The notes under the pieces were generated by a model that was not told where the DNA came from, ran no database searches, and worked only from the letters and a program-made list of their open reading frames with translations. The position numbers and the translations under genes are program-made. From contig NZ_KI912107.1 in NCBI RefSeq assembly GCF_000517085.1, positions 2,539,980 through 2,603,979 on the forward strand: 64,000 nt of DNA, read 5' to 3'. This stretch comes from Saccharicrinis fermentans DSM 9555 = JCM 21142 (GTDB lineage: Bacteria; Bacteroidota; Bacteroidia; Bacteroidales; Marinilabiliaceae). Positions 294 to 58,277 of the stretch are shown here, piece after piece; the first letter of the stretch is position 1, and each line of letters starts with the position of its first letter.

Positions 294-767
294 TTAGTCT
301 TCCGGCCAGATATACTCTTCTTTTTCATCATCCCAAATAGGACCATACTGTATCTCAGTAACAGCTCCATTCTCAAGCCAGAAATTAACACTGGCTTCAT
401 AAAAGGAAATGACTTCATGATCGGGACTCTCCGGAGAGGAAACATCTTCTCTATCATACTCTCCCAAGTCCAAGACCGATACCTTAGCCAGTAGGTCATC
501 ATCGGTATTACCAACTAACTTCAGCCCTTCTAAAACAGCATCCGAGGTGCTCACAGCAATAGACCCCAATCGCCAGTCATCCAGCTCATCAAAAGAAACT
601 GAAAGCTCCAGCTCATCATAATGATAGGCTTCCGTATTATCCTCTGCCTCTTCGCTACTGGCATAAGCGTCAATTTCATCAGGCTCACCTAAAATTGCTT
701 TCACTTCTTCGCGGGTCATACCGAAACGAATCTCATCAAACCCCTTACCAATTAAAATCTCTTTCAT
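294..767 (-). CDS. Hypothetical acidic protein, start placed at the end of a dispersed repeat
   Basis: I do not recognise this 157-residue protein. It is acidic, has no signal peptide or membrane segment, and near its N-terminus reads FGMTREEVKAILGEPDE. That resembles the short 'GMT-EEV-ILG-P' signature of SmpA/OmlA-type and immunity-like proteins, which is weak evidence only. The frame is open up to an ATG at 794, but the first nine codons of that longer version (MAVKSKFRR) are repeat sequence shared with other loci. The ATG at 767 therefore fits better as the start. A terminator follows at 239-270 and the gene appears monocistronic. Confidence 0.6.
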   Translation of the reverse strand: MKEILIGKGFDEIRFGMTREEVKAILGEPDEIDAYASSEEAEDNTEAYHYDELELSVSFDELDDWRLGSIAVSTSDAVLEGLKLVGNTDDDLLAKVSVLDLGEYDREDVSSPESPDHEVISFYEASVNFWLENGAVTEIQYGPIWDDEKEEYIWPED

Positions 768-849
768 ACGTCTAAATTTGCTTTTAACGGCCATATGAAA
801 CTCGCCACCTTAGTCATTTTCCTATGTGATAAGAGCTTACTCATGGCTC
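765..849 (-). repeat. Dispersed 85-bp module, copy E1 (ends on a start codon)
   Basis: On the minus strand it runs from GAGCCATGAG through CACATAGGAAAATGACTAA and GCGAGTTTCATATGGC to the ATG at 767, the probable start of the next gene. From the ATG inside the head a 26-codon frame (MSKLLSHRKMTK...) is open. Its TGA stop overlaps the gene's ATG as ATGA. Confidence 0.7.
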
Positions 850-853
850 ATTG

Positions 854-939
854 CATATACTTACATTTTATTTCCAATAACCATACTAAACTCACCAATA
901 GAATCATCTACCTTAGTGAGAACAAGTCTCTCATGGCTC
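854..939 (-). repeat. Dispersed module, copy E2, in tandem with E1
   Basis: An 86-bp unit with head GAGCCATGAG and tail GAGTTTAGTATGG...GTATATGCAA lies directly upstream of E1, with a period of 90 bp. The head ATG opens an eight-codon frame (MRDLFSLR) that ends in TAG. A further ATATGCAA precedes it at 944-951, perhaps the tail of a third, decayed unit. Confidence 0.6.
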
Positions 940-1186
940 CTTGCATATATTTTCCAGCTAAAAAAATAAAAATAGTCTGCAAAGAAACAACATCTCTTTA
1001 TTACTTAGTCCTTCTTTTACTTTTTTAGCGTGCACAATATAAGTCAATAATTATTGAAACCTATAATCACGATGCAAATTTTACACAAAATTCACAATTA
1101 AAATTCACTTCACTTTTAAGCAACACAACGGGGGACACATTCATACGCTGAAGTAAACGAATGCAAACAGTAATATCACTGCAAAA
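940..1186. other. AT-rich intergenic stretch
   Basis: Apart from the possible repeat tail at 944-951, I see no gene, hairpin or recognisable promoter. The plus-strand open frame across 795-1028 is the complement of the E1 and E2 repeats. Confidence 0.5.
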
Positions 1187-2065
1187 CTACAAGGTATGCA
1201 ATACCGCCCTAAAATCGCTGGCACTAGATATCAAATGAAAACCATCCGGAATCATATGTCCATGATTTTTGACCTGCAGTCCCGTAATTAGAAAAGGTGT
1301 ATCTTGTAAGCCTTCTTTATATGATTTTAATAGTGCTTCCAAATCCCCTTCTGATGAGGGATTAATAAAGGATGTAAAAAATGCATCAGCTTTTTGTATT
1401 TGATTAATTGCCTTTAAATCCTCAAAGGGAACCGATACACCTAAATATATAACGCGAAATCCTGCCTTACGGGCTAGTAGACTATAAAACAACAGTCCTA
1501 TTTCATGTAATTCATCTTCTGCCAAAAAGAAGGTTATTTGCTTTGCATTTTTTTCCTTCACCATTTCATTATCGATGGCAACAATTAACTTTTGACGTAT
1601 CAGATTACTAATAAAATGTTCCTGTGCCGGATTAATTGTACCTGCTTGCCACAACACACCAATCCTGTCTAAAAAAGGAAACAGTATTTCTTCCACTGTA
1701 TTTTCAAACCCCCTTTTTATGATAGAAGTCGTTAATACATTGTTGAACTTATATTCATTAAGTTCCAACATCGACACCACCAGACTTTCTATTTGTATAT
1801 TTGTATTTCCATGATCCAAGCACAGGTCAATAACCTTTTCTTTTAACTGATGATTGTCTAGGTTGGCAATTTTAGAAATCTTAAAACCATTTTGATTGAG
1901 TATAGAAATATTTAATATACGCTTTAAATCATCATCGGAGTATTTTCTTATATTGGTATTGCTACGCATAGGCTCGATCACCCCATACCTTCTTTCCCAA
2001 ATACGAATAGTATGCGCTTTTATACCTGAAATTTTCTCTAAATCTTTGATCGAATATATGGCCAT
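1187..2065 (-). CDS. MerR-family, cobalamin-binding transcription regulator (CarH/LitR type)
   Basis: The 292-residue protein has an N-terminal MerR winged helix (about 1-70, with IRIWERRYGVIEP), a helical B12-binding cap (about 95-165) and a C-terminal Rossmann cobalamin domain (about 172-292). It carries W139 followed after nine residues by E149-H150, the W-x9-EH spacing of CarH photoreceptors. It also carries ExHxxG with H187, the expected lower cobalt ligand. CarH proteins repress in the dark as adenosylcobalamin-bound tetramers and release DNA in light. That this one is a light sensor is inferred from these residues. It lies downstream of, and on the same strand as, the fasciclin gene, whose leader holds repeated motifs. 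Confidence 0.8.
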   Translation of the reverse strand: MAIYSIKDLEKISGIKAHTIRIWERRYGVIEPMRSNTNIRKYSDDDLKRILNISILNQNGFKISKIANLDNHQLKEKVIDLCLDHGNTNIQIESLVVSMLELNEYKFNNVLTTSIIKRGFENTVEEILFPFLDRIGVLWQAGTINPAQEHFISNLIRQKLIVAIDNEMVKEKNAKQITFFLAEDELHEIGLLFYSLLARKAGFRVIYLGVSVPFEDLKAINQIQKADAFFTSFINPSSEGDLEALLKSYKEGLQDTPFLITGLQVKNHGHMIPDGFHLISSASDFRAVLHTL

Positions 2066-2284
2066 TATCTCCAGTCCTGTATTTTTTGTTAGCTTAATTC
2101 CAATGCTCCTGTTTACTCAAATCCCTAAAGGATGTTGAATATAATGAATTACTTTTCCCTAACGAATGATGTTTTGGTTTTGTTCATCAAATTTACACAT
2201 TTATTTAGCAAAACAGAATACATATATACAGCGAAAGGTTGGCTTGTAAAACAAACCAACCTTTCTATCAACAACTGAACCCGG

Positions 2285-3637
2285 TTAAGGAACAATTACT
2301 TTATCAATTGCATGAACTACGCCATTGGTTCCTTGCACATCTGCTATTATGACACTGATATCACCATCAATCATAACTTTACTGCTAATATCGATGGTCA
2401 GATCTTTTTCTGTGTTCAAAGTAGGCACACTACCATTACTCAAATCCGACGATCTCACATTACCACTTACCACATGTGCTAATAATATAGGTGTCAAAGT
2501 TTCTTTACTCAAATCTTCAATTCCATTTACATTAAGAGTAGCAAACAAAGCTTCAAAAGCTGCATTAGTAGGAGCAAATACGGTAAAAGGACCTTCGCCA
2601 GAAAGCGTTTCTGCTAATTCTGCTTTAACTACAGCTTCAACTAATATTGAAAAAGCAGTGTTATTCATGGCCAGGTCAACCACGGTATTGGGCATAAGTA
2701 CCTGATCAATTACATGGACAATTCCATTGGTGGCCACCACATCCGTCAAAACTACAGTTGCCTTATTCAGCATCACCGTTGAGTTGCTAACATCAATATT
2801 AGCACTCAAATAATTATCTTGCCCCATGGCCAAAGCACTCACATACCCAGAAGTAACCTGAGCAGCTGGAACAAAAGCATTAACCACATGATATAACAGA
2901 ATAGGTGTAAGAGCCTCCTTACTAAGATCATCCAAGGTGACATCTAGATCTTCAAATAACATTTCAAAGGCATCATCTGTGGGGGCAAAAACAGTGAAAT
3001 TGTTTTCATCGTCATCTAAGGTTGTAGCCAACTCTGCTTTTACAACGGCTGCCGTTAAACTGGACAAGGCAGGATTGGCAATGGCATGATCTGTAATAGA
3101 CGGTGGCAACATTACAGCATCTATTATGTGAATATAACCATTGTCGGCCATCACATCGGCCTGTGTGATGCTCGCAGCACCGTTGAGCATCAAGTCTTCC
3201 TTGTTAAAATATATGGAATAGTAATAACCACCTTCCTTTTCACTGATAGAAGGATAATAACCTGTAGATAATACTGTAGATGAATTAGCTCCTGCAACCA
3301 CATGATAAAGCAATATTTTAGTCAACTCATCCTTCGAAATATCGTCCAAAGAGGATGCTCCAAGTTCACTTAACAAAGCCTCAAAGGCAGTATTGGTTGG
3401 CGCAAAAACAGTATACTCAGTACTCCCACTTAAGGCTGAAACCAAATCGGCCTTTGTAAGCGCCTCTACTAAAATTGAAAATGTAGCATCTGATGATGCA
3501 ATGTCTACAATTGTATTTGTTTCCTCCTTAGGGTCTTCTTTCCCTGTATCATCGTCATCATCACAGCTTGTTAAACCCAAGTTTAAAGTTAAAATAATGA
3601 CTACTAAAAAATACCAGTTGATTTTAAGAACTTTCAT
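2285..3637 (-). CDS. Lipoprotein with three fasciclin (FAS1) domains
   Basis: The 450-residue protein begins with a lipoprotein signal (LGLTSC, then a run of Asp), so it should be anchored in a membrane facing the periplasm or outside. Three FAS1 repeats follow. Each has a FAPT-aAFE motif (about residues 73, 215 and 355) and a later H-V-x-G/N segment with VIHIID, VHVID or VHAID. FAS1 domains mediate adhesion or matrix contacts, and in bacteria they often have no defined ligand. The gene precedes the CarH-like regulator on the same strand, with a gap of about 220 bp. Confidence 0.85.
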   Translation of the reverse strand: MKVLKINWYFLVVIILTLNLGLTSCDDDDDTGKEDPKEETNTIVDIASSDATFSILVEALTKADLVSALSGSTEYTVFAPTNTAFEALLSELGASSLDDISKDELTKILLYHVVAGANSSTVLSTGYYPSISEKEGGYYYSIYFNKEDLMLNGAASITQADVMADNGYIHIIDAVMLPPSITDHAIANPALSSLTAAVVKAELATTLDDDENNFTVFAPTDDAFEMLFEDLDVTLDDLSKEALTPILLYHVVNAFVPAAQVTSGYVSALAMGQDNYLSANIDVSNSTVMLNKATVVLTDVVATNGIVHVIDQVLMPNTVVDLAMNNTAFSILVEAVVKAELAETLSGEGPFTVFAPTNAAFEALFATLNVNGIEDLSKETLTPILLAHVVSGNVRSSDLSNGSVPTLNTEKDLTIDISSKVMIDGDISVIIADVQGTNGVVHAIDKVIVP

Positions 3638-3707
3638 GATTTTTGTTTTAATGTTGATTAAACTTTTTTTTAATTAATCTGCGCATCAATTAATTATAAC
3701 CAGATCC

Positions 3708-3805
3708 GTTGTGTTGATTTGTATATTGTTTAATCATCACAACTATTTATTAAACACAACGACTGTGTTTTTGTTCAATTATTTTTCATTTTTATTAAAC
3801 ACAAC
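3708..3805 (-). promoter_or_regulatory. Repeated operator-like motifs upstream of the fasciclin gene
   Basis: On the minus strand the 11-mer GTTGTGTTTAA occurs at 3805-3795 and 3760-3750, each followed by TAAA. A looser GTTGTGATGATTAAAC lies at 3743-3728 and an inverted CAACACAAC at 3716-3708. Direct repeats upstream of a gene paired with a CarH-like regulator fit multimeric operator binding. That these are its sites is inference. Confidence 0.45.
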
Positions 3806-3858
3806 TGATAACATCATCACCCCTACACTATATATAATGAGAGTTTAATATAAAAGAT

Positions 3859-3866
3859 TAACTTTG
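3859..3866 (+). promoter_or_regulatory. Bacteroidota -7 box (TAACTTTG) for yicC
   Basis: TAACTTTG matches the TAnnTTTG consensus 25 bases before the ATG at 3892, so the leader would be short. No clear -33 TTG is seen at the usual distance. Confidence 0.5.
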
Positions 3867-3891
3867 TGCCTTCAATAAAATGTATATACAA

Positions 3892-4767: not shown

Positions 4768-4828
4768 CTTATTTGCAAGATATATTTATAAACACCATAA
4801 TTTCTTTCTTAAAAAAATCCAGAGACAA

Positions 4829-10318: not shown

Positions 10319-10401
10319 GCCTTGTATATCCTACTTTCTTACTTTTAATTCCCCAAACGCATATAGAATGCACTACGATTTAAAATGACTGCCAATAGAG
10401 C

Positions 10402-10487
10402 CATAAGTACACTTATTTTTCAACGGCCATCTGTAACTCGCTAAAATTATTCACACTTCTCCGTGTGAAATACTTTATCACGGCACC
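10402..10487 (-). repeat. Dispersed 86-bp module, copy I (no gene at its end)
   Basis: On the minus strand it runs from GGTGCCGTGA through TTTCACACGGAG and AGCGAGTTACAGATGGCCGTTG to CTTATGGC. It aligns along its length with the copies at 50461 and 765. Its terminal ATG opens only a 19-codon frame. Upstream, 10488-10530 resembles the second module (TGTTGAAATGAG, then GCTATGGTGA). The remainder of the gap from 10319 to 10676 holds nothing else I can name. Confidence 0.6.
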
Positions 10488-10676
10488 ATTCAATCACCAT
10501 AGCAACCCCATTACTCATTTCAACATTAAATTAACTTATCGATAGATAGCTCTTTTCAATAAAGGCTCATCTCTACAATTTCTAGTTAAATAAAAATACT
10601 ATATTTGTTATAATCCGGTGCGAGCATAAAAATGTGCGTATAAAACTCTGCCAAGCAAAAACTAACAGCATATGCC

Positions 10677-11770: not shown

Positions 11771-13159
11771 CTATGATTCTTCACTGACATACTGGTCAAT
11801 AATAACAGAAACTGAGGCATCTCCAGTCACATTCACCGTTGTCCTCACCATATCCAAGATACGATCTACAGGTAAAATAATGGCAATCCATGCAGGATTC
11901 AATCCTACCGACTGCAACACCACCATCAGCATCACAATGCCCGCACTAGGAATTGCAGCGGAGCCGATACTGGCCAGTGTAGCTGTTAACACCACTGTAA
12001 TTTGCTGCCCCAAGGTAAGATCGATCATATGCAATTGCGCCAAAAACAAGACAGCAACAGCCTGATACAGACTGGTTCCATCCATATTAACCGTAGCGCC
12101 TATAGGCAATACAAATCCGGCTGTTTTTTTATCTACACCCAAATTCTCCTCAACACATTCAAATGTCACAGGTAAGGTAGCAGCACTGGAACTGGTAGAA
12201 AAAGCCAAGGCCTGTGCAGGACTGATACCACGTAAGAACTCAAAGAACTTTCGTTTAGGCACCAATAACTTTAAAACACCCGGATAAATAGCAAAGGCCA
12301 TTAAGAGCAAGCCAATTAGAACGGTCAACGAATACCATCCCAGCCCCTTAAAGATCTCTACAATTTTAGCAGGATTATCTCCTGCAATATCATTCACTAC
12401 GCCTGCCATCAAAGCAAAAACAAAAAAGGGAGCTCCTTTCATGATAATATCAACCATTTTGATAAAAACTTCCGAAGCGCCATCCACAAACTGAATGATG
12501 GTGCGGGATTTATCTGCAGGAATATACAATAAGGCTATTCCAAAGAATATTGCAAAAAAGATGATCTGAAGCATAGAACCGTTACCTGCTATTGCATTAA
12601 AAGCATTCTCTGGCACCAAATCAACCAATGCCTGCAACGGCCCTTGTTTTTTTTTAGGCTTCAATTTGTCCACTATTTCATTTTCACGCTCTATTTGTAA
12701 CAGCGCCTCCTTCACCTTAACAATATCTTTATTTTCGGGGCTATCAGAAAATCGCAGACCATCTTTTATCTCTATCTGGTTGTTATCAGCCCACAATTCA
12801 TAAGCAATTCTATTTTCCAATCTCACCTCATCAGACAATGCCTTACCTGGCTTAAAAGTATTTACCAGCACTAAACCCAATGACACAGCTACCACGGTGG
12901 TAAGCAAATATAAACCAAGGGTTCTCACTCCTAATCGTCCCAAATCTTTGGGGTTACCCAAGCTCACAATCCCACTAATAATAGAAAACAAAATCAGCGG
13001 AATCGCAATCAACTTAAGCAGTTTGATAAATATTTTACCAAAGGGATCAATCCAGTCGCTCGTAAAGCCCTGCCAACCCAAATAACCGGACAATATTGCC
13101 CAAATAGCCCCCAGAACAATACCTGCTATTATTTGTAAATAAAGAGGTACATTTTTCAT
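11771..13159 (-). CDS. Dicarboxylate/amino acid:cation symporter (DAACS family)
   Basis: The 462-residue inner-membrane transporter has the family's serine-rich hairpin (STSSSAATLPVTFECV) and the NMDGTSLYQ motif of the substrate/Na site. It imports C4-dicarboxylates, glutamate or aspartate with H+ or Na+, and which one is not decided here. An insertion of about 80 charged residues (about 105-185) between early membrane segments is longer than in GltP. Its ATG is the end of a dispersed repeat that fills the gap after aroC. Confidence 0.9.
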   Translation of the reverse strand: MKNVPLYLQIIAGIVLGAIWAILSGYLGWQGFTSDWIDPFGKIFIKLLKLIAIPLILFSIISGIVSLGNPKDLGRLGVRTLGLYLLTTVVAVSLGLVLVNTFKPGKALSDEVRLENRIAYELWADNNQIEIKDGLRFSDSPENKDIVKVKEALLQIERENEIVDKLKPKKKQGPLQALVDLVPENAFNAIAGNGSMLQIIFFAIFFGIALLYIPADKSRTIIQFVDGASEVFIKMVDIIMKGAPFFVFALMAGVVNDIAGDNPAKIVEIFKGLGWYSLTVLIGLLLMAFAIYPGVLKLLVPKRKFFEFLRGISPAQALAFSTSSSAATLPVTFECVEENLGVDKKTAGFVLPIGATVNMDGTSLYQAVAVLFLAQLHMIDLTLGQQITVVLTATLASIGSAAIPSAGIVMLMVVLQSVGLNPAWIAIILPVDRILDMVRTTVNVTGDASVSVIIDQYVSEES

Positions 13160-13200
13160 ATGATTATAATTTGTTTTTCAGTTGCCATATGGAACTCGCA
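13157..13200 (-). repeat. Dispersed module, copy F, 3' half (ends on a start codon)
   Basis: On the minus strand, GCGAGTTCCATATGGCAAC, then TGAAAAACAAATTATAATC and ATATGAA, matches the tail half of the module. The final ATG is the start of the symporter gene. The head half is missing or lies inside the end of aroC. The whole aroC-symporter gap (56 bp) is taken up by it. Confidence 0.6.
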
Positions 13201-13215
13201 AGAAAATTCTTAGGT

Positions 13216-14292
13216 TTATGAATACATTTTATTCAGATAAATCATATCTACCATGACCATCGCGGCCATTGCTTCAACAATAGGCACTGCACGTGGCAAC
13301 ACGCATGGATCGTGACGTCCCTTAACGGTAGTAGCCACTTGCTCCCCTTGTTTATTCACCGTGTTCTGTTCTTTCAATATAGTCGCAATAGGTTTAAAAG
13401 CCACATTCATATAAATATCTTCTCCATTGGTAATCCCTCCCTGAACACCTCCAGAGCGATTTGTTCGAGTTCTCACTTTATCACCGTCCATATAAAACTC
13501 ATCGTTGTGCTGTGTTCCCTTCATCTCTGTGGCCTTAAAGCCCATACCGTATTCAAAGCCTTTAACAGCATTGATACCCAACATGGCCTTACCCATTTGT
13601 GCATGAAACTTATCAAAGACAGGCTCTCCTAATCCAACGGGAGCATTCTTCACCACACAGGTGATTACACCACCCACAGAATCCTTATCCTGACGAACCT
13701 GATCAATATATTGAATCATCTTCCCGGCTACCTCAGCATCCGGACAACGCACTATGTTTTCCTCTGCTTTTGACAAATCCATTTCGGCATATGATTTTTC
13801 TAACTTAATGGAACCTACTTGCGAAGTATAGGCATTGATTTGAACACCATACTGTTTCAAAATAAGCTTGGCTATAGCTCCGGCAACTACCCTGGCTATC
13901 GTCTCACGCGCCGAAGAACGACCGCCTCCCCTATGATCGCGGATACCATATTTTTGCTGATAAGTATAATCTGCATGCGAAGGACGGTATACATCCTTTA
14001 TGTTACCATAATCCTTAGAACGTTGATCTGCATTCCAGATTAAAAAACCAATCGGTGTACCCGTGGCTTTTCCGTCCAGAACACCAGATAAAATCTCCAC
14101 CCTATCTTTCTCGTCACGCGGTGTTGTGATCGTACTTTGTCCAGGACGACGGCGATTTAACTCACCTTGAATAAAATCCATATCCAATACAACCCCTGGC
14201 ATCACTCCCTCTATAACACCACCTACTGCTTTTCCATGTGACTCCCCAAAAGAAGTCAATTTATAAAAATTACCAAATGAATTTCCGGCCAT
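13216..14292 (-). CDS. aroC: Chorismate synthase
   Basis: The 358-residue enzyme converts EPSP to chorismate, the last step of the shikimate pathway, using reduced FMN. Family motifs are clear: [21 protein letters not shown], and [17 protein letters not shown], plus [13 protein letters not shown] for FMN/substrate binding. Length is typical. It precedes the symporter gene on the same strand, separated only by a repeat. Confidence 0.97.
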
Positions 14293-24702: not shown

Positions 24703-24803
24703 GGATCACGCACAAAAGTTGGGTCTGTAAAAAAAGTATTTATTTAACTGTCAAATAGAAACAAATAAAATAAATTGTGAAAGAAGAATTACCATCGGAG
24801 TAA
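24703..24803 (+). mobile_element. Left-end relic of the ISAon1-like element
   Basis: The terminal-repeat-like end (GGATCACGCACAAAAGTTGG) and the A/T-rich leader up to GTGAAAGAAGAA match the copy at 54752 closely. The element breaks off after about 100 bp, where the first reading frame hits a TAA. From 24804 to 24844 nothing is recognised. Confidence 0.7.
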
Positions 24804-37031: not shown

Positions 37032-38378
37032 TTAAACGTACATTTGTTGCACTGCGCTCATAGCAGCTAACACAATAGGATAATTGCCCGGCCCGGCTGT
37101 AAGCATTGGCTGCGTGCCATATTGCATAATAGCCAATTCTGAAGCAGTCATATGCTTCTGTATGGCTAATCCTAGGATATTAATCATTTCACCGGTTGAC
37201 TGTCCTCCTATAATCTGTGCCCCTAAAACAACTCCGCTTCCTTTTGAAAAAATAAGTTTCACCTTTTGTTTGGAAGTCTCTGGCAGTTTAGCAGGATGAT
37301 GGTCAACGCCCTCATTTCGACCTACAACTATCTGAAAACCTTCGGCATTCGCTTGCTTTTCTGTTAATCCGGCCGCCCCCATTGAAATATCACCCAACGA
37401 GCTTGAAAAAATGGCAATACTGCCTTTTGTTTGCCTAATCACTCTTAAATTATACAGATTCATACCCGCAATTCTGGCTTCTGAAGCACCGGTAGAAGCA
37501 AGCATTAGCTTGGATTGTTTCCGTGTAAAAAAATCTCGATGCTCCACACAATCACCAACGGCATAGATATCTTTTATAGATGTTCTAAGGTATTCATCGG
37601 TGACAATACCACCATAAATTCCAATTTGAATTCCTCCTTCTTTTGCCAAAGAAACATTGGGCTGATATCCTATGGCCAGAATTACATTATCAGCCTTTAT
37701 AACCTCCCCACTCTGAAGTTGAACGCCTGATAACTTGCCCTCTTTTCCAAGTATTTTATCCACCATTGTATCGGTGCGTATGGTAACTCCATGCTTTGCT
37801 AACACATCTATGGCAGGACTTATCATATCATTATCAAAAGCCAAAGGTAAAATGGAATCCATGGCTTCAATCAAGGTAATGTTGGCCCCCAGTTTCACGA
37901 GTTCATCACTCATCTCCACACCAATAAATCCAGCACCAATGACAACAATCTCCTTTCCTTTATTCAATTTTGATTGAAGCGCTTGAATATATTCCAATTC
38001 CTTTCGAATTGTTACCACGCCTTCTAAATGGATCCCCTTAATAGGTGGTATAAATGGTGTTGAACCCGTTGCTATAATTAACTTATCATAACTTACAAAA
38101 CGATTACTTTTCAAATGCAAACGCTTTTGATTACTATCAATTGCACTTACCTCATCAATTAAAAAATCAATTCCCATATTTTTTGCAGGCTCAATACTTT
38201 TAATATTGTCTTCTACAGAATGCAGGGTCCCAAAAGTATATGGTATTCCACAAGGTATCAGTGACTGCTCTTCTTTTCTAATAACCAATACCGTCTTATC
38301 TTTATGAAGCATTTTTGCGGACGAGGCAGCTGCCCCTCCTGCTGGGTTTCCCCCAATTATAACAATGTCGTATTTCAT
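37032..38378 (-). CDS. CoA-disulfide reductase/NADH oxidase-like flavoprotein
   Basis: The 448-residue FAD enzyme has an N-terminal FAD fold (DIVIIGGNPAGGAAA), a single redox Cys at residue 43 (SLIPCGIPYTFG), a central NAD fold (EIVVIGAGFIGVEMSDEL) and the second FAD contact (DIYAVGDCVE). The lone Cys43 is that of CoA-disulfide reductases and NADH peroxidases. I start at 38378. The frame runs 28 codons further up, but that part is the dispersed repeat. It is divergent from a Crp/Fnr regulator about 400 bp away. Confidence 0.88.
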   Translation of the reverse strand: MKYDIVIIGGNPAGGAAASSAKMLHKDKTVLVIRKEEQSLIPCGIPYTFGTLHSVEDNIKSIEPAKNMGIDFLIDEVSAIDSNQKRLHLKSNRFVSYDKLIIATGSTPFIPPIKGIHLEGVVTIRKELEYIQALQSKLNKGKEIVVIGAGFIGVEMSDELVKLGANITLIEAMDSILPLAFDNDMISPAIDVLAKHGVTIRTDTMVDKILGKEGKLSGVQLQSGEVIKADNVILAIGYQPNVSLAKEGGIQIGIYGGIVTDEYLRTSIKDIYAVGDCVEHRDFFTRKQSKLMLASTGASEARIAGMNLYNLRVIRQTKGSIAIFSSSLGDISMGAAGLTEKQANAEGFQIVVGRNEGVDHHPAKLPETSKQKVKLIFSKGSGVVLGAQIIGGQSTGEMINILGLAIQKHMTASELAIMQYGTQPMLTAGPGNYPIVLAAMSAVQQMYV

Positions 38379-38460
38379 ATACTCTAATTTAATTACAATG
38401 GCTCTATGGAGATCCTCTGAATTAATCATTCTCCTGTGTGTAAATCCATTCCCATGGGTC
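38376..38460 (-). repeat. Dispersed 85-bp module, copy D (ends on a start codon)
   Basis: On the minus strand it runs from GACCCATGGG through ACACACAGGAGAATGATTAA and GGATCTCCATAGAGCC to GTATATGAA. The last ATG starts the flavoprotein gene. An 18-bp stretch (ACACACAGGAGAATGATT) is identical to copy C at 41100-41183. The head ATG opens a nine-codon frame, MGMDLHTGE, then TGA. Confidence 0.65.
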
Positions 38461-38711
38461 ATTTCATCCCATGTATTTATATATTTCGCAAATAGTGCGT
38501 ACTACCAAGCATTGATATCTGATCGCCATATCGTTTCAGGACATCTGCCTTTTGGGATATACAATCAAACATGCTGTTAATATTGTTCCATCACCGACAG
38601 GGCAAAAATAGAGCCTTAAGATGCTCAGCACAAGAAAGTATAACGGTAGTATTTTGCAAAAAAGATTGAAATATGATAATTATTTTATTACGGAATAGTA
38701 ATCTTTAAAAT

Positions 38712-41099: not shown

Positions 41100-41183
41100 C
41101 ACCCTCACAAATTCTGCTTCCGCCATGGCTTTAAGCCACAAATTTAAATCATTCTCCTGTGTGTTCCATTATTCTCATGACTC
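41100..41183 (-). repeat. Dispersed 84-bp module, copy C (no gene at its end)
   Basis: On the minus strand it runs from GAGTCATGAG through ACACACAGGAGAATGATT to a tail of GCCATGGCGGAAGCAGAATT that ends GTG where other copies have ATG. The head ATG opens MRIMEHTGE, then TGA, closely parallel to copy D. An internal ATG (41126) opens a 24-codon frame (MAEAEFVRVF...) that stops at 41052, before the sugar dehydrogenase start. Confidence 0.6.
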
Positions 41184-43628: not shown

Positions 43629-44135
43629 ATGAAGAGAAGACAGTTGATGGTAGGAATAATGATGATAATGTCACTAACCATCCATGGTCAACAGTCCATG
43701 TTTAAGGCACTGTTTATGTTTAACTTTGCTAAATACATCGTATGGCCAGACCAGGCAAAGCAAAACGAGTTTATTATCGGTGTATCCGGAAACGATGCCA
43801 TTATTTCGGAATTGAACAAACTAGCAGCAATCAGAAAAATTAATGGCAAGCCCATTGTAATCAAAAAGGTGAAATCACCATCCGAAGCTCCCAATGCAAA
43901 TATGTATTACATTCCCGCCTCTAACTCAGGAAAATTATCTGAGGTTACGACTTATTTCGCGGGTAAGCCTACGCTAATTATTACCAACAAAGATAACTTA
44001 TGTAAAAAAGGTGCTTGCATCAACTACGTCAACCGTAATGGCAAGCTGAAATATGAAGTAAACCAAGCCAACATCAAATCACACCAACTGAATGTAGATC
44101 CTAAACTTATCGCGCTCGGTATCGAAATAAAATAA
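43629..44135 (+). CDS. YfiR/HmsC-like periplasmic protein (DUF4154)
   Basis: The 168-residue protein has a signal peptide (VGIMMIMSLTIHG) and the DUF4154 pattern: FMFNFAKYIVWP, FIIGVSGNDAI, then CINYVNRNGKLKYEVNQ and LNVDPKLIALG at the end. YfiR in Pseudomonas is a periplasmic repressor of a diguanylate cyclase. In Bacteroidota, relatives sit next to TonB receptors or sensor kinases with no proven role. It is followed after 11 bp by a TonB-dependent receptor gene, so the two are probably one operon. Confidence 0.82.
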   Translation: MKRRQLMVGIMMIMSLTIHGQQSMFKALFMFNFAKYIVWPDQAKQNEFIIGVSGNDAIISELNKLAAIRKINGKPIVIKKVKSPSEAPNANMYYIPASNSGKLSEVTTYFAGKPTLIITNKDNLCKKGACINYVNRNGKLKYEVNQANIKSHQLNVDPKLIALGIEIK

Positions 44136-44146
44136 ATTAAACACAC

Positions 44147-46618
44147 ATGTTACTACGAAAATATATATCACTCATTTTATGGATGGCCGTTACCATCTCC
44201 GTATATGCACAAGAAAACAAAATAGACATCCATAGTATTAGCCGAGAACAAGTACTAGAGATGAAAATAGAGGAACTAGCGCTATACGATTTAGACGAAC
44301 TTTCCCAATTAATGGATATAGTCGGAGCCTCCAGTCTGGATGAATTATATGACTTACTATTAAACAAAGAGGTTACCTCTGCTTCTAAAACAGAAGAAAA
44401 TCTATTTGATTCACCCTTATCTACCACTGTTTTAAGTCACGACCAAATAATTGCATCCGGAGCCACCTGTATTGAAGAAGCGCTGCGCCTGGTTCCTGGA
44501 GTTATCGTTCGAGAAAAAACCAATGGTAACTACGACGTTCACATTCGAGGTAACGACAACCTTCCTTCTAAAAACATGCTATTATATTCTGAAAATATGA
44601 ATACCTTGGTTATGATAAATGGCCGCCCGGTATTTAATTATTCACATGGCGGTACAATATGGGAGACTCTACCAATAGGCTTTGAAGATATAGATCGAAT
44701 AGAGGTTATACGCGGCCCTTCCAGTGCTTTATATGGTCCTAATGCTGTTTCTGGTGTCATCAATATTATCACACAAATGATAACTTCTGAAACACCGCTT
44801 ATTTCAGGCAACTTTCAAGGTGGCTCTTTAAGCTCATACATTGGTGATATAGCCTTTAGAAAAAAAATAAACAAAAAATGGAGTATAGGAGTCACTGGCA
44901 ATTACGAAATACGCAAACGAGAAAGAGACGATTTATTTATATATAACGGAGAAGATGATAACGGAAATCTTTTATATACTTTAGATGGTAAACCCACCGG
45001 ATCCGGCTACTATACCAAAGATGAAATCAGTAAAATGTATAAAGGGCAATACCAACTATGGGCTCCTTATATGGTGGGCAAGCAAACCTACGACATAAAC
45101 ACCTCATTTCCTAACCCTCAACAATCAAAAGAACGCATTGGGGTAAATGGATATCTGCATTATGCACCAAATAAATACACAACAATACAGCTTTCTGCAG
45201 GCTCACAAGAGTCAGAAGCATTGTCCTCAACAATGGGCGATGTACCTACACCCTACTCCACAAAAAAAGCAGCTACCCAATACATAAATTTACATACTAC
45301 TGTAAAAAACTTTTCATTACAAGCCAATTTCAACACCGGAACCATAGATTACATGACTGGAAATGAAGGATTTGAACTTGACAACAAACAATACAATATT
45401 CAAGCTGAATACAATTTTAAAATAGGCGGTTTAGATATACGTCCTGGCGTAAGCTATCAAGCCATGACCTATGATGATTCTCCGCATATTTCAGAAAATG
45501 GAAAAGGTTATTTAAATGGGGAAAGCACCATCGATATTCTAGCTGGCAGTATGCGACTCGATTACAAACCAACTGACAAATTACGTTTTGTTTCCGCCTT
45601 GCGTGCCGAAAAATATAACCACCCTGACGATATTTATGCTTCTTGGCAATTTGTAGCTTCCTACAAAATAAACGATCACAACCTATTAAGAGCTGTATAT
45701 TCAAGGGCAAACCAGTCGTCATTTATCGTAAACACCTATTCAAACTACACATGGAATATAGTCAATCGCCCTTATCCCCGGGTGATGCAATTTGGAGGAG
45801 AAATCAATGATTATGACCTTAAAACCATGGATATGTTTGAATTGGGTTACAGACTAAGGCCTGTAAAAAACATATTGTTGGATTTCGAGGCCTTTTATCA
45901 TGTATCAAAAGACTTCGGTGCCTTAGCACCCGATTACACCGACTACGTCGTATATAATCCTTTGCAGGCTATCATGGGGCAAGAAGCCATAGGACGTCCC
46001 GATTCAGTACATATTCAATACCAAAACTATGATCTAAAATCGAAGCAGCTAGGACTCAGTATAAATATGGATTGGGTAATTAATGAGAAATTAGTAGTAA
46101 ATGCTAACTTAACACTTCAACAAACCCACCTTGACCATTATCAGCCTGCCAGCAGAGACGATATTATTTTACATCAAGCCACGGTAGCTGGAGCTAAGGT
46201 ACAAACTGCACTGGAAGAAATTGGTAGTCAACTATTGTCAGGAGAAATCACACCAGAACAGGTTCCAACCTTTGTGAAAGCATCTTCTACCTCATTACCT
46301 GAAAATAACATCAATAATTATCAGTACAAGGGCACTCCTTCGTATTTTGGTGGATTTTCAATTACATATCGCCCCACTAAAAAAATAGAATTTTTTCCTC
46401 AGGCATATTTTTATGGTAAACAAACGTTCGAAAACCAATACTATGCCGAAGAAATTGATGGTAAAATATTACTAAACCTAAAAGCGTCTTACAAAACCTC
46501 AAATCATTTAACTCTCTATATAAATGGAAAAAATTTATTAAGCCAACAATCAAGAGAATTTGCCTTTATGGACCAAATACCTGTGATGATTTTAGCAGGG
46601 ATTCAGTTCAAATTGTAA
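44147..46618 (+). CDS. TonB-dependent outer-membrane receptor paired with YfiR
   Basis: The 823-residue receptor has a signal peptide and then an acidic linker (ELALYDLDELSQLMDIVGAS) of unusual content. A plug (about 85-210: STTVLSHDQIIASGATCIEE, LVMINGRPVF, IEVIRGPSSALYGPNAVSG) precedes a barrel ending IPVMILAGIQFKL. There is no SusD partner and no carboxypeptidase-like domain, so it is a siderophore/colicin-type receptor. Its tight link with the YfiR-like gene suggests the pair shares a signal or ligand. Confidence 0.88.
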   Translation: MLLRKYISLILWMAVTISVYAQENKIDIHSISREQVLEMKIEELALYDLDELSQLMDIVGASSLDELYDLLLNKEVTSASKTEENLFDSPLSTTVLSHDQIIASGATCIEEALRLVPGVIVREKTNGNYDVHIRGNDNLPSKNMLLYSENMNTLVMINGRPVFNYSHGGTIWETLPIGFEDIDRIEVIRGPSSALYGPNAVSGVINIITQMITSETPLISGNFQGGSLSSYIGDIAFRKKINKKWSIGVTGNYEIRKRERDDLFIYNGEDDNGNLLYTLDGKPTGSGYYTKDEISKMYKGQYQLWAPYMVGKQTYDINTSFPNPQQSKERIGVNGYLHYAPNKYTTIQLSAGSQESEALSSTMGDVPTPYSTKKAATQYINLHTTVKNFSLQANFNTGTIDYMTGNEGFELDNKQYNIQAEYNFKIGGLDIRPGVSYQAMTYDDSPHISENGKGYLNGESTIDILAGSMRLDYKPTDKLRFVSALRAEKYNHPDDIYASWQFVASYKINDHNLLRAVYSRANQSSFIVNTYSNYTWNIVNRPYPRVMQFGGEINDYDLKTMDMFELGYRLRPVKNILLDFEAFYHVSKDFGALAPDYTDYVVYNPLQAIMGQEAIGRPDSVHIQYQNYDLKSKQLGLSINMDWVINEKLVVNANLTLQQTHLDHYQPASRDDIILHQATVAGAKVQTALEEIGSQLLSGEITPEQVPTFVKASSTSLPENNINNYQYKGTPSYFGGFSITYRPTKKIEFFPQAYFYGKQTFENQYYAEEIDGKILLNLKASYKTSNHLTLYINGKNLLSQQSREFAFMDQIPVMILAGIQFKL

Positions 46619-46858: not shown

Positions 46859-47065
46859 ATTAACTCGCTTTTTAAAGATTTGGCCTAACACTTGTAATAT
46901 TTATATATACATCAGGATCAAAAATAACTTTAAACACTAACTATCAATATAATACAATAAATACAACCTATTTGAACCCTACATAATGGTAATAAATAGG
47001 CTAATTTATTTACATATTGGTAACATATACCGAAGTAAATGACGAACCTGAAACCAATCTTTGCA

Positions 47066-47136
47066 AAAAGTATTACACTTGGCAATGATTGAATTCTCTT
47101 GTGACACACAAATGACCATTAAAATAATTACAAATG
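47066..47136 (+). repeat. Possible diverged copy J of the 85-bp module
   Basis: GATTGAATTCT, then CAAATGACC and ATTACAAATGAAA, lines up loosely with the tail of the copy at 50461, and its last ATG would be the start of the NifX-like gene. The match is weak and could be chance in AT-rich DNA. Confidence 0.25.
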
Positions 47137-47535
47137 AAAGCATGTATCCCAATTATGGGCAACAATACCCTTCAGAAGGAACGCGTTGCCAACGATTTTT
47201 ACAAAGCACAACATTATTGCATTTATGATTTTGACACAGACGCCTCCGTCATCTATTCCTTGTCGGATACCAATACCATATACATGTCCCTCAGTGAAAT
47301 AAAAAAACAAGGCATTCAAATCATCATCACCCCTAACTTACGACCTATGGCTGCCAAAATTTTATTTGAAAATGAAATAGAAGTATACAAGGCTGTTGGA
47401 AATGTAACAAAAGAAAATATTGACCATTACAAAAGAGGCTTACTACAGGATTTCACCGAAACTATGATTGAAAGCAAAAAAGACTGCGCTTCTCAATCTT
47501 GCGCTTCCTGTTCTTCATCAGACAGCTGTCATTAG
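47134..47535 (+). CDS. NifX/NifB-type domain protein with Cys-rich tail
   Basis: The 133-residue protein has a shortened NifX-like fold: MKACIPIMGNNTLQKERVAN, FYKAQHYCIYD, then IIITPNLRPMAAKILFENEI. A tail with five Cys follows (KKDCASQSCASCSSSDSCH). The usual HFGHC and GG segments are missing, so any cluster would have to use the N-terminal Cys or the tail. It is a distant relative of the protein at 6096-6488 and has no nif neighbours. It is flanked on both sides by copies of the second dispersed module. Confidence 0.65.
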   Translation: MKACIPIMGNNTLQKERVANDFYKAQHYCIYDFDTDASVIYSLSDTNTIYMSLSEIKKQGIQIIITPNLRPMAAKILFENEIEVYKAVGNVTKENIDHYKRGLLQDFTETMIESKKDCASQSCASCSSSDSCH

Positions 47536-48829: not shown

Positions 48830-48865
48830 TTATTATACAAAAGAGTGAGACAAATTAAACGAATA

Positions 48866-50341: not shown

Positions 50342-50460
50342 AACGTATAATTTTAAATTTACATGTCCGTAAGACATCTTATTATTATTTACCTTTTTAT
50401 CCGATTCATGATCAGATTGTCATTTTTTATGACCATTGATAAAGTTTAACCATATCAGAC

Positions 50461-50547
50461 GAGCCATGAGTAATATTTCACACACAGAGGGGTGATTAAT
50501 TCTGGCGAGCTCCAAATGACCCTTGATAGATAAACTTTAAACATATG
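50461..50547 (+). repeat. Dispersed 87-bp module, copy G (no gene at its end)
   Basis: It runs from GAGCCATGAGTAATATTTC through ACACACAGAGGGGTGATTAA and GGCGAGCTCCAAATGACC to AAACATATGAA. Its last 45 bases match the copy at 58192 closely. The terminal ATG opens only a 22-codon frame, and the head ATG opens MSNISHTEG, then TGA. It lies in the divergent htrA-dapF gap, ahead of the dapF promoter. The stretch 50342-50460 holds nothing I can name. Confidence 0.65.
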
Positions 50548-50631
50548 AAAATCACGGTTCAAAAATGGCAAATTATATGCCCTTATTATGCCAGAATAAG
50601 TACCTTAACCTAATTTTAACTGATTTTTCGT

Positions 50632-53236: not shown

Positions 53237-53290
53237 AGTATTATACAAATCATTTCGCCCGCCAATATTTCATGGGCTAAATGTTTTATA

Positions 53291-53298: not shown

Positions 53299-53336
53299 TA
53301 GCAAATCAATACCGAAATAACAAATAAAATATAGAT

Positions 53337-54536: not shown

Positions 54537-54567
54537 CATCCACAAAACAAAATATTACCAATTGGAC

Positions 54568-54610
54568 AGCTGTGTCAGAGAGACATCCATGAAATCTCCC
54601 TGACACAGCT
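54568..54610 (+). terminator. Long hairpin after the flavodiiron gene
   Basis: AGCTGTGTCAGAGAGA pairs with TCTCCCTGACACAGCT (one mismatch) around an 11-nt loop, 32 bases past the stop. No T-run follows, so termination is likely but not certain. Confidence 0.6.
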
Positions 54611-54751
54611 CCCAAACTACATATCATACAATTCCACACCAAAGCGATTCGTCTTATCCACCTATGCGGTAATTCAAAAACCTATTGCCATAAAACAAAC
54701 TAGCTAACATCTTAGTTATATGTAATTTTAATGCATCTTTGGGCTAATTCC

Positions 54752-54947
54752 AGGATCACGTACAAAAGTTGGGTCTGTTGAAAAATAAGTATTTATTTAG
54801 CTATTAAATAGAAACTGATAAAATAAATTGTGAAAGAAGAACTATCATTGGAGCCATCGGTGGCTCTATTTTCACCAGCAGGAATATTAGATTATTTCCA
54901 GATCGTATCCTATCGGAAATCTTCAAGCGGAAAGCATATTTTAAACT
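54752..54947 (+). mobile_element. Left part of a broken ISAon1-like element
   Basis: The terminal-repeat-like end (GGATCACGTACAAAAGTTGG) and leader match the relics at 24703 and 165-191. From GTG at 54832 the first frame reads VKEELSLEPSVALFSPAGIL and stops at a TAA after GKHILN. This is the DNA-binding N-terminal protein of the element, truncated. After 54947 the element sequence is lost, and an open stretch of about 47 codons (KYNESLYNLSNHIQEL...) up to 55089 is unidentified. Confidence 0.7.
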
Positions 54948-55088
54948 AAGGATTTGAAGTTAAGGGTGTTGATATTCTATTTTAATAATAATTTCAAGTA
55001 TAACGAAAGTCTTTACAATTTATCCAACCATATTCAAGAACTCTCATCTAAAGGATATCTCCTATTAATGTACAAAGCTATCAATTAA

Positions 55089-55288
55089 TGAACCGCAGGG
55101 TTGGCCAGAACAATAGCCCCGGGGCCGGCGTTGGCGAGAAGCTTCCCTGGGCGCACTTGAGGTGGTAGTGCTGTTGGCCTAGCGCGAAGGAAGTGTGCGC
55201 CGGACGGAAAGGGAAGTTGATGCAGGGCAGGTAGTGATCTATTGTTCTAGACCTTTTTGGTCCTTTTTATGGCAATGATAAAAAGGAC
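55089..55288 (+). other. GC-rich block ending in a perfect hairpin, unidentified
   Basis: Between about 55089 and 55240 the base composition jumps to roughly 60% GC in a genome that is otherwise AT-rich. It holds GCCCCGGGGC (55116-55125) and a 7-bp stem GGCGCAC/GTGCGCC (55150-55156 with 55195-55201). It is followed by a 10-bp perfect hairpin, GTCCTTTTTA with TAAAAAGGAC (55260-55288). No frame is open throughout. I have the impression of a dispersed structured element found in other Bacteroidota, but cannot name one. Confidence 0.45.
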
Positions 55289-55319
55289 ATTAACGCAAGT
55301 TCCAAAAGCAAAGAAAATT

Positions 55320-55520
55320 ATCATATAAGTTAGAAACATTGTTCTCGATTAGATAACGGAAGTACCAATGCTGCAGCAGAATCTTTCAATGCAAAAGTAA
55401 AGGATTTCAAAAGGCAATTCCGAGGTGTTGTTGATGTAAAATTCTTCTTATTCAGATTAACAAAAATATTTGCATGACAACTATAAACAACATTTACACC
55501 CAACTTTTGGCACTGACCCT
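55320..55520 (+). mobile_element. Right part of the broken ISAon1-like element
   Basis: A frame ending at 55477 reads NGSTNAAAESFNAKVKDF and RQFRGVVDVKFFLFRLTK, the conserved C-terminus of ISAon1-family transposases. The upstream codons are frameshifted. The right end CACCCAACTTTTGGCACTGA (55497-55516) is the inverted partner of the left end at 54752. The middle of the transposase is gone. Confidence 0.75.
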
Positions 55521-55614
55521 AATTCCATTCGACACATAACCCCTTCTTTCAAAAACAAACACACAACCACCACATTCTCATGAGGTGATTTCATCGGTTT
55601 TATATTAAGCAAGT

Positions 55615-57984
55615 TTAACGTCTTCGTCGCCCGGAGTATTCCATCGCTTCACCATCTCCAAAGCCATAACTTATACCAAAGGTAAAAAACCTACGACCTT
55701 CGGTTAAACCATAGAGATAATAATCACTATCATGGTTTTCATATTCCGATTTCCGTGAGGCAAAAACATCTCTTACACCCAAGTTTACAACTACCCTCCC
55801 TTTCATCATCTTTTTTCTGAGACCTAAGCTGGCATATAAATTATCCTCATATTCCCACTGTACCGTTTTTCGCTTGGACCGATAATTTCCGGTTATCTCA
55901 ACTTCTACATCAGCAGGAAACTTAAGTTTAGACACTAATTTCGAGGACCATTGATCCGCATTAAAATCGAAGGATGAAGCATCATATTCTCCTTTCCTGT
56001 TAAAATAGCTATAGTTAAAGTCGCCATTAAACGACAACCAATTATTAGGACTGTACTTTCCGTTAAACTCGATACCACCCGCATGATTAATACCAATATT
56101 CATTGGCATAGAGGTATTCACATTGTTCTCATAAACCGAAACATTTTCTACGGCATCAGTTGTATATCGATAATAAACACCAAAGTTCAATGAAGCCTTG
56201 CTGAGCACATAAATACTTGTCAATTCATAAGAATCAGTATACTCAGGCTGCAAATCGGGATTGCCAGCTCTGACGCTGTACGTATTACGAATATTAAAGA
56301 ATGGGTTTAGATCCCACAATCTGGGTCTGTATATCCTTTTGGAATATCCTGCCTGAAGAGAAAAGTGGCTGGTCAGTTTTAATGAGGTATGGATGGATGG
56401 AAAAAAATTATAATAATTCTGATCATTAGACTCTTGCGTATTGATAAGCAAAGTCTTCAAATCGGTTTGTTCTATCCGCAGGCCGAGCTTTAATCCCATT
56501 TTTTTCCCTTCATAAGATGCGGTTCCATAGAGCCCCAATACTTTCTGATCATATTCAAACACATTGGTTAAGCCATCGTCCGCTAGCCATTGCATATTGT
56601 CCCAATTGCTCACCTCATAATCATTATTTACATCTTGCAACACATACTGTCCTCCGGCTTCAATCATAATCTCCTCTGTTAAAGGATTCGTATAGTCCAG
56701 GTTAAAAGTATATTTAGCTTCCTGAAAGTCGGTTGCTGTCTTTTGGTCAGCTCCATCAACATTGCCAAAATTAACTGTATTTGTAAACACCGATGATTGA
56801 TCTTTACCGAAGAAATTACCCAAAGCACTAAATAATAACTGATGTTCTTTGTCATCCTTAAAATTCTTCACATACTGCAGCTCATATCTCCATTTAGGGT
56901 TTGTGGCATCTGTTGTCTCGTCCCTAAACCAGCGAGCCTCTTCCACTCCGTTGACCAACTGACTGTAACGAATCAACGAAGGCTGATCTTCAACTTCATA
57001 GGCTACATTTCCTGAGAGGGTCAATATGTTATAATCATTGATGTGATAATCGGTTCCTAATATAACATTGTAGAAAGTCTCTTTTCTATATTCGGTTCCT
57101 TCGGTAACAATGGATGAATGATTGATCAAATCACTATTAATACTTTTTTTATCCCTTGGCATTTCTCGTCGCCCAACACCAAGCTGACTAAACAAATTAA
57201 ACTTTTCTGTTCGTCTATTGAGACTAACGCCCACACTATGATTAGCAGGACTACCGGTATTCAAGGAAAGAGAACCATTGAGACCTTTTCGTTCATCCTT
57301 TTTAATCACAATATTAATAATACCAGAAGTTCCTTCTGCATCATATTTGGCTGAAGGATTAGTGATCACTTCTATCCTCTCTATCATTTCAGCAGTGATC
57401 GTTCCCAGCGCATTGCTTTCATCGCTGGCTATAACAGATGGTTTGCCATTAATCAGAATCTGAACGCCTTCGCTGCCACGTAGACTGATAGCACCTTCTA
57501 TATCCACATTTACCGATGGCACATTATTAAGAACCTCCATGGCACTCATTCCTGTACTGCTAATATCTTTACCTACATTAAAAACACGTTTATCAAGTTT
57601 AAATTCCGTTTGAGACTTCTCTGCCCTAACCACAACTTCTCCCACTTGATTATTACTTTCGTTTAAAGTTATCGTGCCCATATCAACCCTTCCATTAACA
57701 ACTTTTATATTTGTTAAAACCACGGGTTCATATCCTAAAAAGCTAACTTCCACATAAAAGTTATCCGACACTGTCGCAAGCTCAAAGGCGCCATCATCGC
57801 CAGAGGTCGTTCCGGTAACATTCGTATTTGTAAGCTTATCTTTGATAATAATGGTGGCAAACTCAACAGGTCTGACAGCCCCATCAACAACAACACCCTT
57901 CACTATGACCTCTTTTCCTTGCGCGTTAACACCCATGGGCAAAGAAAACAAGATCAACCATACAATGAAATTAATTATTCGCAT
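55615..57984 (-). CDS. TonB-dependent receptor, OMP_b-brl_3 type
   Basis: The 789-residue receptor has a signal peptide (IINFIVWLILFSLPMGVNA), a carboxypeptidase-regulatory-like domain (VIVKGVVVDGAVRPVEFATI), a plug (LDKRVFNVGKDISSTGMSAM, IEVITNPSAKYDAEGTSGII) and an outer-membrane barrel. The final residues RRRR are unusual for a barrel that normally ends in Phe, so the last strand may lie slightly inward (FTFGISYGF). The start is the ATG at 57984; the ten upstream codons are Lys-rich. It is divergent from a LytS/LytTR pair. Confidence 0.9.
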   Translation of the reverse strand: MRIINFIVWLILFSLPMGVNAQGKEVIVKGVVVDGAVRPVEFATIIIKDKLTNTNVTGTTSGDDGAFELATVSDNFYVEVSFLGYEPVVLTNIKVVNGRVDMGTITLNESNNQVGEVVVRAEKSQTEFKLDKRVFNVGKDISSTGMSAMEVLNNVPSVNVDIEGAISLRGSEGVQILINGKPSVIASDESNALGTITAEMIERIEVITNPSAKYDAEGTSGIINIVIKKDERKGLNGSLSLNTGSPANHSVGVSLNRRTEKFNLFSQLGVGRREMPRDKKSINSDLINHSSIVTEGTEYRKETFYNVILGTDYHINDYNILTLSGNVAYEVEDQPSLIRYSQLVNGVEEARWFRDETTDATNPKWRYELQYVKNFKDDKEHQLLFSALGNFFGKDQSSVFTNTVNFGNVDGADQKTATDFQEAKYTFNLDYTNPLTEEIMIEAGGQYVLQDVNNDYEVSNWDNMQWLADDGLTNVFEYDQKVLGLYGTASYEGKKMGLKLGLRIEQTDLKTLLINTQESNDQNYYNFFPSIHTSLKLTSHFSLQAGYSKRIYRPRLWDLNPFFNIRNTYSVRAGNPDLQPEYTDSYELTSIYVLSKASLNFGVYYRYTTDAVENVSVYENNVNTSMPMNIGINHAGGIEFNGKYSPNNWLSFNGDFNYSYFNRKGEYDASSFDFNADQWSSKLVSKLKFPADVEVEITGNYRSKRKTVQWEYEDNLYASLGLRKKMMKGRVVVNLGVRDVFASRKSEYENHDSDYYLYGLTEGRRFFTFGISYGFGDGEAMEYSGRRRR

Positions 57985-58191
57985 TTTTACATTTATTTTA
58001 TTCTTAATTACCACAAAAAACAGGACTATTCAGCAATTAAAAAAAAATGATCTTTGAACGACACAAATGAAGCGCTCAATGACCCATTCAATTTGACAGG
58101 TAATACACTGTTGTTGGACGTATCAAACGAGCGGTTGCGGGGTTAAATTTCTTCATTTAAAACAAAGCCATTACTTTTAATTTGATAAGAA

Positions 58192-58277
58192 GAGCTATAA
58201 GTAAAACTTTCTCTCACCAACCAATGATGAAGATAAGGAGTTCCATATGGCTATTGAAAGATAAATTTAAACATATG
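58192..58277 (+). repeat. Dispersed 86-bp module, copy H (ends on a start codon)
   Basis: It runs from GAGCTATAAGTAAAACTTTC through CTCACCAACCAATGATGAAG and GGAGTTCCATATGGCTATTG to AAACATATGAA. The terminal ATG starts the LytS-like kinase. Here the frame that begins in the head (ISKTFSHQPMMK) stays open and joins the kinase frame, unlike in copy E1, where it ends at the start codon. Confidence 0.7.

Follow-up and report, generated by a model that had tools for sequence, protein, structure and literature searches.

REP/RAYT and IS200-IS605-derived elements are short, hairpin-forming, non-autonomous repeats present in high copy, and integron attC sites have AAC/GTT ends and fold into a stem that contains a mismatch and is variable at its apex. 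Mycobacterial MIRU occur as head-to-tail tandem copies. They are described as short, dispersed and apparently mobile repeats whose insertion at start codons does little damage to the gene (PMC12548453). Beggiatoaceae, Cyanobacteria and some Bacteroidetes are reported to have direct repeats of TAACTGA upstream of their start codons, with mobility considered by the authors (PMC4679880). Here we analyse a dispersed repeat, family A, as a rule about 85-95 bp long, found in a 64,000-nucleotide stretch of Saccharicrinis fermentans DSM 9555 = JCM 21142 (contig NZ_KI912107.1, positions 2,539,980 to 2,603,979 of the forward strand; hereafter the window, 64 kb of a 5.98-Mb genome).

In our judgement family A is likely a non-autonomous mobile element whose insertions fall directly before, or around, an ATG start codon, with a preference for ATGAAA. 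Insertion itself is established, as are the abutment of the 3' edge on the host's own ATG, the presence of the element's own ATGAAACGAG at the 5' edge, head-to-tail stacking and two covarying stems. The literature searched, judged by titles and abstract openings and with subscription papers mostly outside its scope, gave no description of family A.

Anatomy, copy number and distribution

The layout of the unit, taken from 30 exact sites with their flanks, is ATGAAACGAGCCATGAG-(variable stem)-CACACAGG.GAATGATTA-..-GGCGAGTTCCATATGRCC-(A-rich tail)-CAT, followed directly by ATGAAA and the gene, and tandem copies run head to tail with a period of 87-90 bp and one ATGAAA common to both. A covariance model, R1, was built from alignment A3 (63 copies, none of them out of the window), which was collected by patterns requiring GAGTTCCATATG with at most one change, so that conservation within A3 is overstated. 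The genome has many copies beyond those from which the repeat had been predicted, with at least 150 R1 matches (all 150 scored at E ≤1.8e-5). When two mismatches at most are allowed, GAGTTYCATATGGC occurs at 249 sites and its reversed pattern at 33. The rigid length originally claimed holds only roughly, as genome matches span 87 to 115 bp.

In 1.264 Mb including the window R1 gave 82 matches at E ≤0.1, of which those at E ≤1.6e-5, minus one cut by the end of its stretch (L241), are referred to below as the strong copies (n=63). Ten of these have a neighbour at least 95% identical and the median nearest identity is 78%, so that the genome (G000) holds both young and old copies. Spacer variants are genome-specific, with seven TTATTTTCTGG copies in the relative G005 and many ATCACGG copies in G000. 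R1 matches (E ≤0.001) were found in 35 of 61 genomes drawn from the species itself and from the same genus, family and order, and copy number within the genus varies widely, from 9 to at least 68 matches. Across a collection of 84,980 species genomes, 82 stretches matched a gapped exact pattern, with Bacteroidota named in 78 of the 80 listed titles; carriers include Marinilabiliaceae, Prolixibacteraceae, Proteiniphilum, Breznakibacter, Carboxylicivirga, Marinifilum, Aquimarina and Flavobacteriales, and the two other titles are ‘Bacterium BMS3Abin03’ and Kineothrix, the latter likely a chance match in which the head is not visible. There was no Rfam match in the window at gathering score, and 14 fetched loci gave two weak Rfam matches only (E 0.84-0.89, far under gathering score). 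Plasmids and phages gave no match to one 96-base query each, nor did viral contigs to one exact gapped pattern.

Insertion at start codons

Start codons were taken from open reading frames (ORFs) and not from annotation. The terminal start codon opens an ORF of at least 60 codons in 38 of the 63 strong copies, 37 of them at an identical model position and one with TTG as the start codon, an excess over the 520 of 1961 ATGAAA sites in 1.2 Mb that do so (binomial p 1.8e-8), as the predicted association with start codons implied. In an earlier sample, 36 of 53 copies had such an ORF no more than 50 nt away. ATGAAA stands at 31 of the 38 gene-start copies, as against 170 of 835 called genes, a baseline that rests on crude ORF calls, and the other seven have different first six bases. 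Neither replication strand (elements 41:17, ATGAAA-starting genes 106:64, p 0.27, for 58 of the 63 strong copies, window excluded) nor operon position showed a clear bias, the upstream gene being co-directional in 29 and divergent in 5 of 34 gene-start copies in 1.2 Mb, compared with 644/190 for all called genes.

The direction of the event, insertion, follows from orthologous empty sites, judged by eye. Relatives read leader then ATG-gene, and carriers read leader, ATGAAACGAG...CAT, then ATG-gene; the relatives are distant, so that most empty sites show the junction and not the exact ancestral leader. Seven copies of G005 were compared by eye with G002 and G006 over 140-330 nt upstream, and clean empty sites were found at four loci (G005/relative: L127/L265; L135/L257 and L254; L137/L261 and L258; L141/L268), the leader alignment being close at L127, L135 and L141 and loose at L137. 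At L131 the relative's junction is empty but G002 has another array upstream, at L139 G002 has a different copy, and L143/L269 was left without verdict. Within the genus the element is missing at seven of eight OTC loci (G008 having a decayed copy), at all eight pepT loci and at all seven ksgA loci. For mgsA, G007 carries the gene twice, once filled and once unfilled, with a third locus left without verdict. These empty sites, and the occurrence at unrelated loci of near-identical copies and of subfamilies peculiar to one genome, support the original prediction of a mobile cis-element giving a 5' leader.

The same comparisons do not support the idea that the element supplies the start codon, since empty relatives have an ATG already and, where the second codon is other than AAA, the carrier too has a codon other than AAA. 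At fucP the empty relative G004 has ATGAAT, and in G000 the 5' edge reads ATGAAAC and the 3' edge ATGAAT; at ptb the start is ATGGAC in three relatives and ATGGAA in the carrier G000; and at purT the carrier G000 has ATGACT, where seven relatives have ATGAAT, ATGAAC or ATGAGC, so the purT start has changed at some time. From these edges the 3' ATG is the host gene's and the 5' ATGAAAC the element's, the 5' ATG alone possibly being a target copy.

Copies in the window

The window was scanned with R1 with filters off, and the copies of family A are as follows.

762..856 (-), family A copy, R1 73.0 bits, ending at ATGAAA 767-762, the start of ORF 294-767
851..946 (-), degenerate copy, head-to-tail upstream of the 762..856 copy, R1 48.5 bits alone
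10399..10493 (-), weak and decayed copy with no gene after it, R1 29.6 bits, E 4.5e-4 in 64 kb
13154..13232 (-), copy with 3' part intact and 5' part gone, R1 49.3 bits, ATG 13159 being the start of an SDF symporter
38373..38467 (-), family A copy, R1 59.2 bits, ATG 38378 being the start of a pyridine nucleotide-disulphide oxidoreductase
41100..41183 (-), partial copy retaining the head and the CACACAGGAGAATGATT core alone, R1 12.3 bits, E 3.6, model positions 7-55
50454..50550 (+), full copy, R1 68.7-68.8 bits, terminal ATG opening 22 codons only
58185..58280 (+), family A copy, R1 56.7-56.8 bits, ATG 58275 being the start of a His_kinase-domain protein with second codon AAC

R1 thus recovered seven of the eight copies first noticed by eye. 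The half copy reported at 13157-13200 corresponds to the longer match with an intact 3' part, whilst the sequence at 41100-41183, reported as full, matches only in its 5' half and has not kept the GAGTTYCATATG tail. The copies at 762..856 and 851..946 have one ATG in common, and the latter scores 33.4 bits, as 861-946, in the whole-window scan. The start codons at 767, 13159, 38378 and 58275 belong, as had been proposed, to unrelated genes, with four different Pfam results (BamE, the best match but under its cut-off; SDF symporter; pyridine nucleotide-disulphide oxidoreductase; His_kinase-domain), although the start at 767 is ambiguous, the frame of ORF 294-767 being open also from ATG 794. 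At the SDF symporter the element is absent from all seven relatives' loci, and for the gene at 38378 the query matched its own genome only, with no orthologue in the genus and hence no empty site.

Two very weak R1 matches end exactly at an ATG, 47048-47139 (+) (19.5 bits) at that of ORF 47134-47535 and 44062-44152 (+) (14.2 bits) at that of ORF 44147-46618; these may be decayed copies or ordinary A-rich leaders.

Two covarying stems

The first hairpin, HP1, pairs the 5' ATGAAAC with the internal GTTYCAT. RNAalifold found it unaided in A3, as ATG.AAC with GTT.CAT, a GA/GA mismatch and then GCC/GGC; 35 cells are changed on both sides and the covariation score is 0.138, each a value reached by none of 500 shuffles, and 82% of cells are paired as against 20-38% when the stem is slid. 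In the outer stem a C opposite A is conserved in 149 of 163 copies, which on the complementary strand would be a G.T wobble. The second hairpin, HP2, is formed by the internal CATxyG and the 3' end together with the start codon, so that its last three bases are the start codon of the host gene, and has five cells in A3 changed on both sides (0/500 shuffles). Among 157 distinct tails the matching pairs are CATATG/CATATG (100), CATCTG/CAGATG (6), CATGTG/CACATG (4), CATAAG/CTTATG (2) and CATCCG/CGGATG (1). An internal C goes with a terminal G in 8 of 9 tails, compared with 7 of 148 otherwise (p 7e-9), some of the compensated copies being close kin (L066/L097 of one genome, two of L064, and L070/L109).

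A start codon held within a covarying HP2 would also be expected of a cis-regulatory RNA leader, a thermometer or protein-binding site of a large regulon, whose copies would be retained because translation is controlled by HP2, which masks the start codon. Predicted single-copy RNA folds, in which 5 of 7 copies form both HP1 and HP2, and the CACACAGG.GAATGATT core common to family A and a second family, B (below), are consistent with such a leader. We nevertheless regard it as quite improbable, since the element is missing from most same-genus orthologues examined, the downstream genes are unrelated, 25 of the 63 strong copies have no ORF of at least 60 codons after them, and a regulon alone leaves tandem stacking and genome-specific subfamilies unexplained; any control of translation could arise incidentally from a mobile element.

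Reading frames through the element

The reading frames of A3 bear on two further explanations, and were followed from the 5' ATG in the copies with an intact terminal ATG (n=62) and from the internal ATG where this too is intact (n=56). In the first, family A is a MIRU-like element that survives by translational coupling, the TGA of an internal ORF overlapping the ATG of the gene. Of the 56 copies, 20 have a frame that leads from the internal ATG (CATATGRC) to a -4 overlap with the gene and 16 have one that enters the gene in frame, a sum of 36 where 18.6 are expected (0/500 shuffles), although the copies are related and the excess does not come from independent events. On the other hand, 17 of the 56 frames stop earlier and 3 run past, 15 of 62 copies have a chain leading from the 5' ATG to the gene, and the frames between the conserved ATGs are mixed, so that we think coupling unlikely as the explanation, whilst still giving it serious weight. 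A relay of ATGA stop-start overlaps beginning at the 5' ATG looked attractive in the youngest G000 subfamily when judged by eye, but it is not conserved and was rejected.

The second, a decaying small protein-coding gene family, had been the alternative offered in the original prediction. Seven of 62 copies are open in frame from the 5' ATG into the gene, but the reading frame is not conserved, the spacings of the conserved ATGs are spread over all three modulo-3 classes and the stems covary, and we give this explanation almost no credence.

Family B and other repeats

A second family, B (ATGAAACTGGCATGGCCAGNGCAAAT..CACACAGGTGAATGATTG..ATTTGCACYGGTTAGTGAAGTTTCGCTAATTTTTAAACATATGAAA), is found after several family A copies, shares with family A the CACACAGG.GAATGATT core and GAAAC/GTTTC ends, and behaves like it. 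A profile of 13 copies gave 16 matches in 1.264 Mb, examples of which, all in G000:C3, are as follows.

297853-297961, family B copy
870214-870323, family B copy
788318-788428, family B copy

Eight of the 16 matches end at a gene start and five run, by eye, into a family A copy; family B lies upstream of family A in L138, L144 and L150.

A possible third family (ATGAAACAAGCTAGTYGGC...CAATTTTAATTC) was seen by eye after family A copies, near 704130, 71118 and 171659 of G000:C3. GC-rich REP-like palindromes (CCCCGAA..TTCGGGGCAGGC; CCTGTCCCGCC..GGCGGGAGG) are nested within element copies at recurring points, after GAGCC, after GAGTTCC and before GGGAATG, and upstream copies bearing them include L127, L135, L137, L141 and L143 of G005 and L253 and L267 of G002. 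The window also holds another dispersed repeat of about 73-81 bp (..AATAAAATAAATTGTGAAAGAAGAATTATCA.CGGAG..; 7-164, 24726-24800 and 54779-54941; 84-93% alike), with similar letters in L022, and an inverted repeat pair of 131 bp, 90% complementary and 4.5 kb apart (55395-55525 / 60064-60194).

Proposed mode of insertion

The guide-to-end pairing proposed below resembles that of IS200/IS605 guides. That likeness, together with the hairpins, the high copy number and Y1_Tnp matches in 51 of 61 genomes, the S. fermentans genome included, would favour a Y1 transposase as the mover of family A, making it an element of REP/RAYT or IS200/IS605 type. However, Y1_Tnp (PF01797) is missing from the carrier genomes G014 (98% complete, 32 copies), G022 (76%, 56 copies) and G023 (95%, 22 copies), and the S. 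fermentans genome has four Y1 matches, two of them with internal stops. A family A copy lies near only 2 of 30 Y1 loci (L296 and L299), which may be chance given the copy number. Copies could outlive a lost Y1 enzyme, but with absence from three carriers and linkage at 2/30 loci a Y1 transposase was rejected as a consistent partner, and we judge this origin unlikely. An autonomous parent with the same ends was likewise rejected: 12 of 121 heads in fetched loci have no tail within 120 nt, and these sequences look degenerate, palindrome-filled or cut by the end of the locus, although ORFs between the ends were not systematically searched.

For a non-autonomous element inserting at start codons, we propose that the internal GTTYCATxyG would act as a common guide, pairing either with the 5' ATGAAAC (HP1) or, via TTYCAT, with the target ATGAAA at the 3' end (HP2); the preference for ATGAAA would follow from the latter pairing. 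The mobile form would probably be folded single-stranded DNA (or RNA), on which an enzyme acts in trans. Insertions at start codons would survive as the gene keeps its ATG and gains a new A-rich leader, and those inside genes would be lost to selection. The A-rich tail is treated as a leader directly usable by the gene, with translational coupling a possible help, and the element may tune translation since HP2 partly sequesters the start codon. A wider reading makes families A and B, alike in core and behaviour and different in their stems, members of a class of guide-carrying mobile elements, in which GTTYCATxyG pairs with both ends in turn and with the target ATGAAA and directs start-codon insertion via a novel enzyme; this we offer tentatively, as a possibility with somewhat less than an even chance.

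Several observations weigh against a mobile element of the kind proposed. No enzyme partner was identified, given the three carriers lacking PF01797 and the rarity of family A near Y1 loci, and no longer autonomous version was noticed, within the limits of the search stated above. Strong copies with no long ORF after them make up 25 of 63, another element family coming next, by eye, in eight of these. The ATGAAA preference may partly reflect selection after insertion, as seven of eight pepT relatives lack ATGAAA and the purT relatives lack the carrier's ATGACT, and the counts come from copies that are related to one another and are not independent events. As to the stems, HP1 does no better than shuffles on two of its five measures, those of pairs changed on both sides (255 of 500) and of further pair types (343 of 500), the HP2 covariation score in A3 (0.038) is equalled by a slide of -3 (0.039), and 44 of the 157 tails are not fully complementary, CATATG/CACATG (11) being the most frequent. 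Single-copy folds are modestly better than shuffles (z -1.3 to -2.8 for RNA, -0.3 to -2.7 for DNA), and mismatches do not discriminate the folding strand (A.C 17, G.T 11, p 0.34).

A start codon is a rare safe harbour for insertion, in which the protein is untouched and the leader is replaced. Acting in this way across Bacteroidota, and present in a single genome in at least 150 copies, such an element would continually provide new 5' leaders and would mark true start codons for annotators; if an internal guide directs insertion by pairing, this would be a new insertion principle. It becomes testable whether a selfish element drives repeated rewiring of translation initiation outside mycobacteria.

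Comparison with known systems

Like integron attC sites, family A has a stem with an internal mismatch, a variable apical stem and AAC/GTT ends, but it is dispersed, single or in tandem, without a cassette array, and RYYYAAC/GTTRRRY boxes were not seen by eye. With REP/RAYT elements it has in common conserved hairpins (HP1 and HP2), high copy number and lack of autonomy, and it differs in inserting at start codons and in having no Y1 transposase consistently present or linked. The TAACTGA repeats are also dispersed, lie just upstream of start codons and occur in part in Bacteroidetes, but are seven-base units in direct repeats, and empty and filled sites are not among the available passages of that source (PMC4679880). 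The nearest known system in behaviour is the mycobacterial MIRU. Family A too is short and dispersed, stacks head to tail and is mobile at start codons, the mobility being seen from empty and filled orthologous sites, whilst the -4 nt ORF overlap that is the coupling hallmark of MIRU is present in only 20 of 56 copies; it belongs to another phylum, prefers ATGAAA and carries two covarying stems, and is set beside MIRU by its behaviour only.

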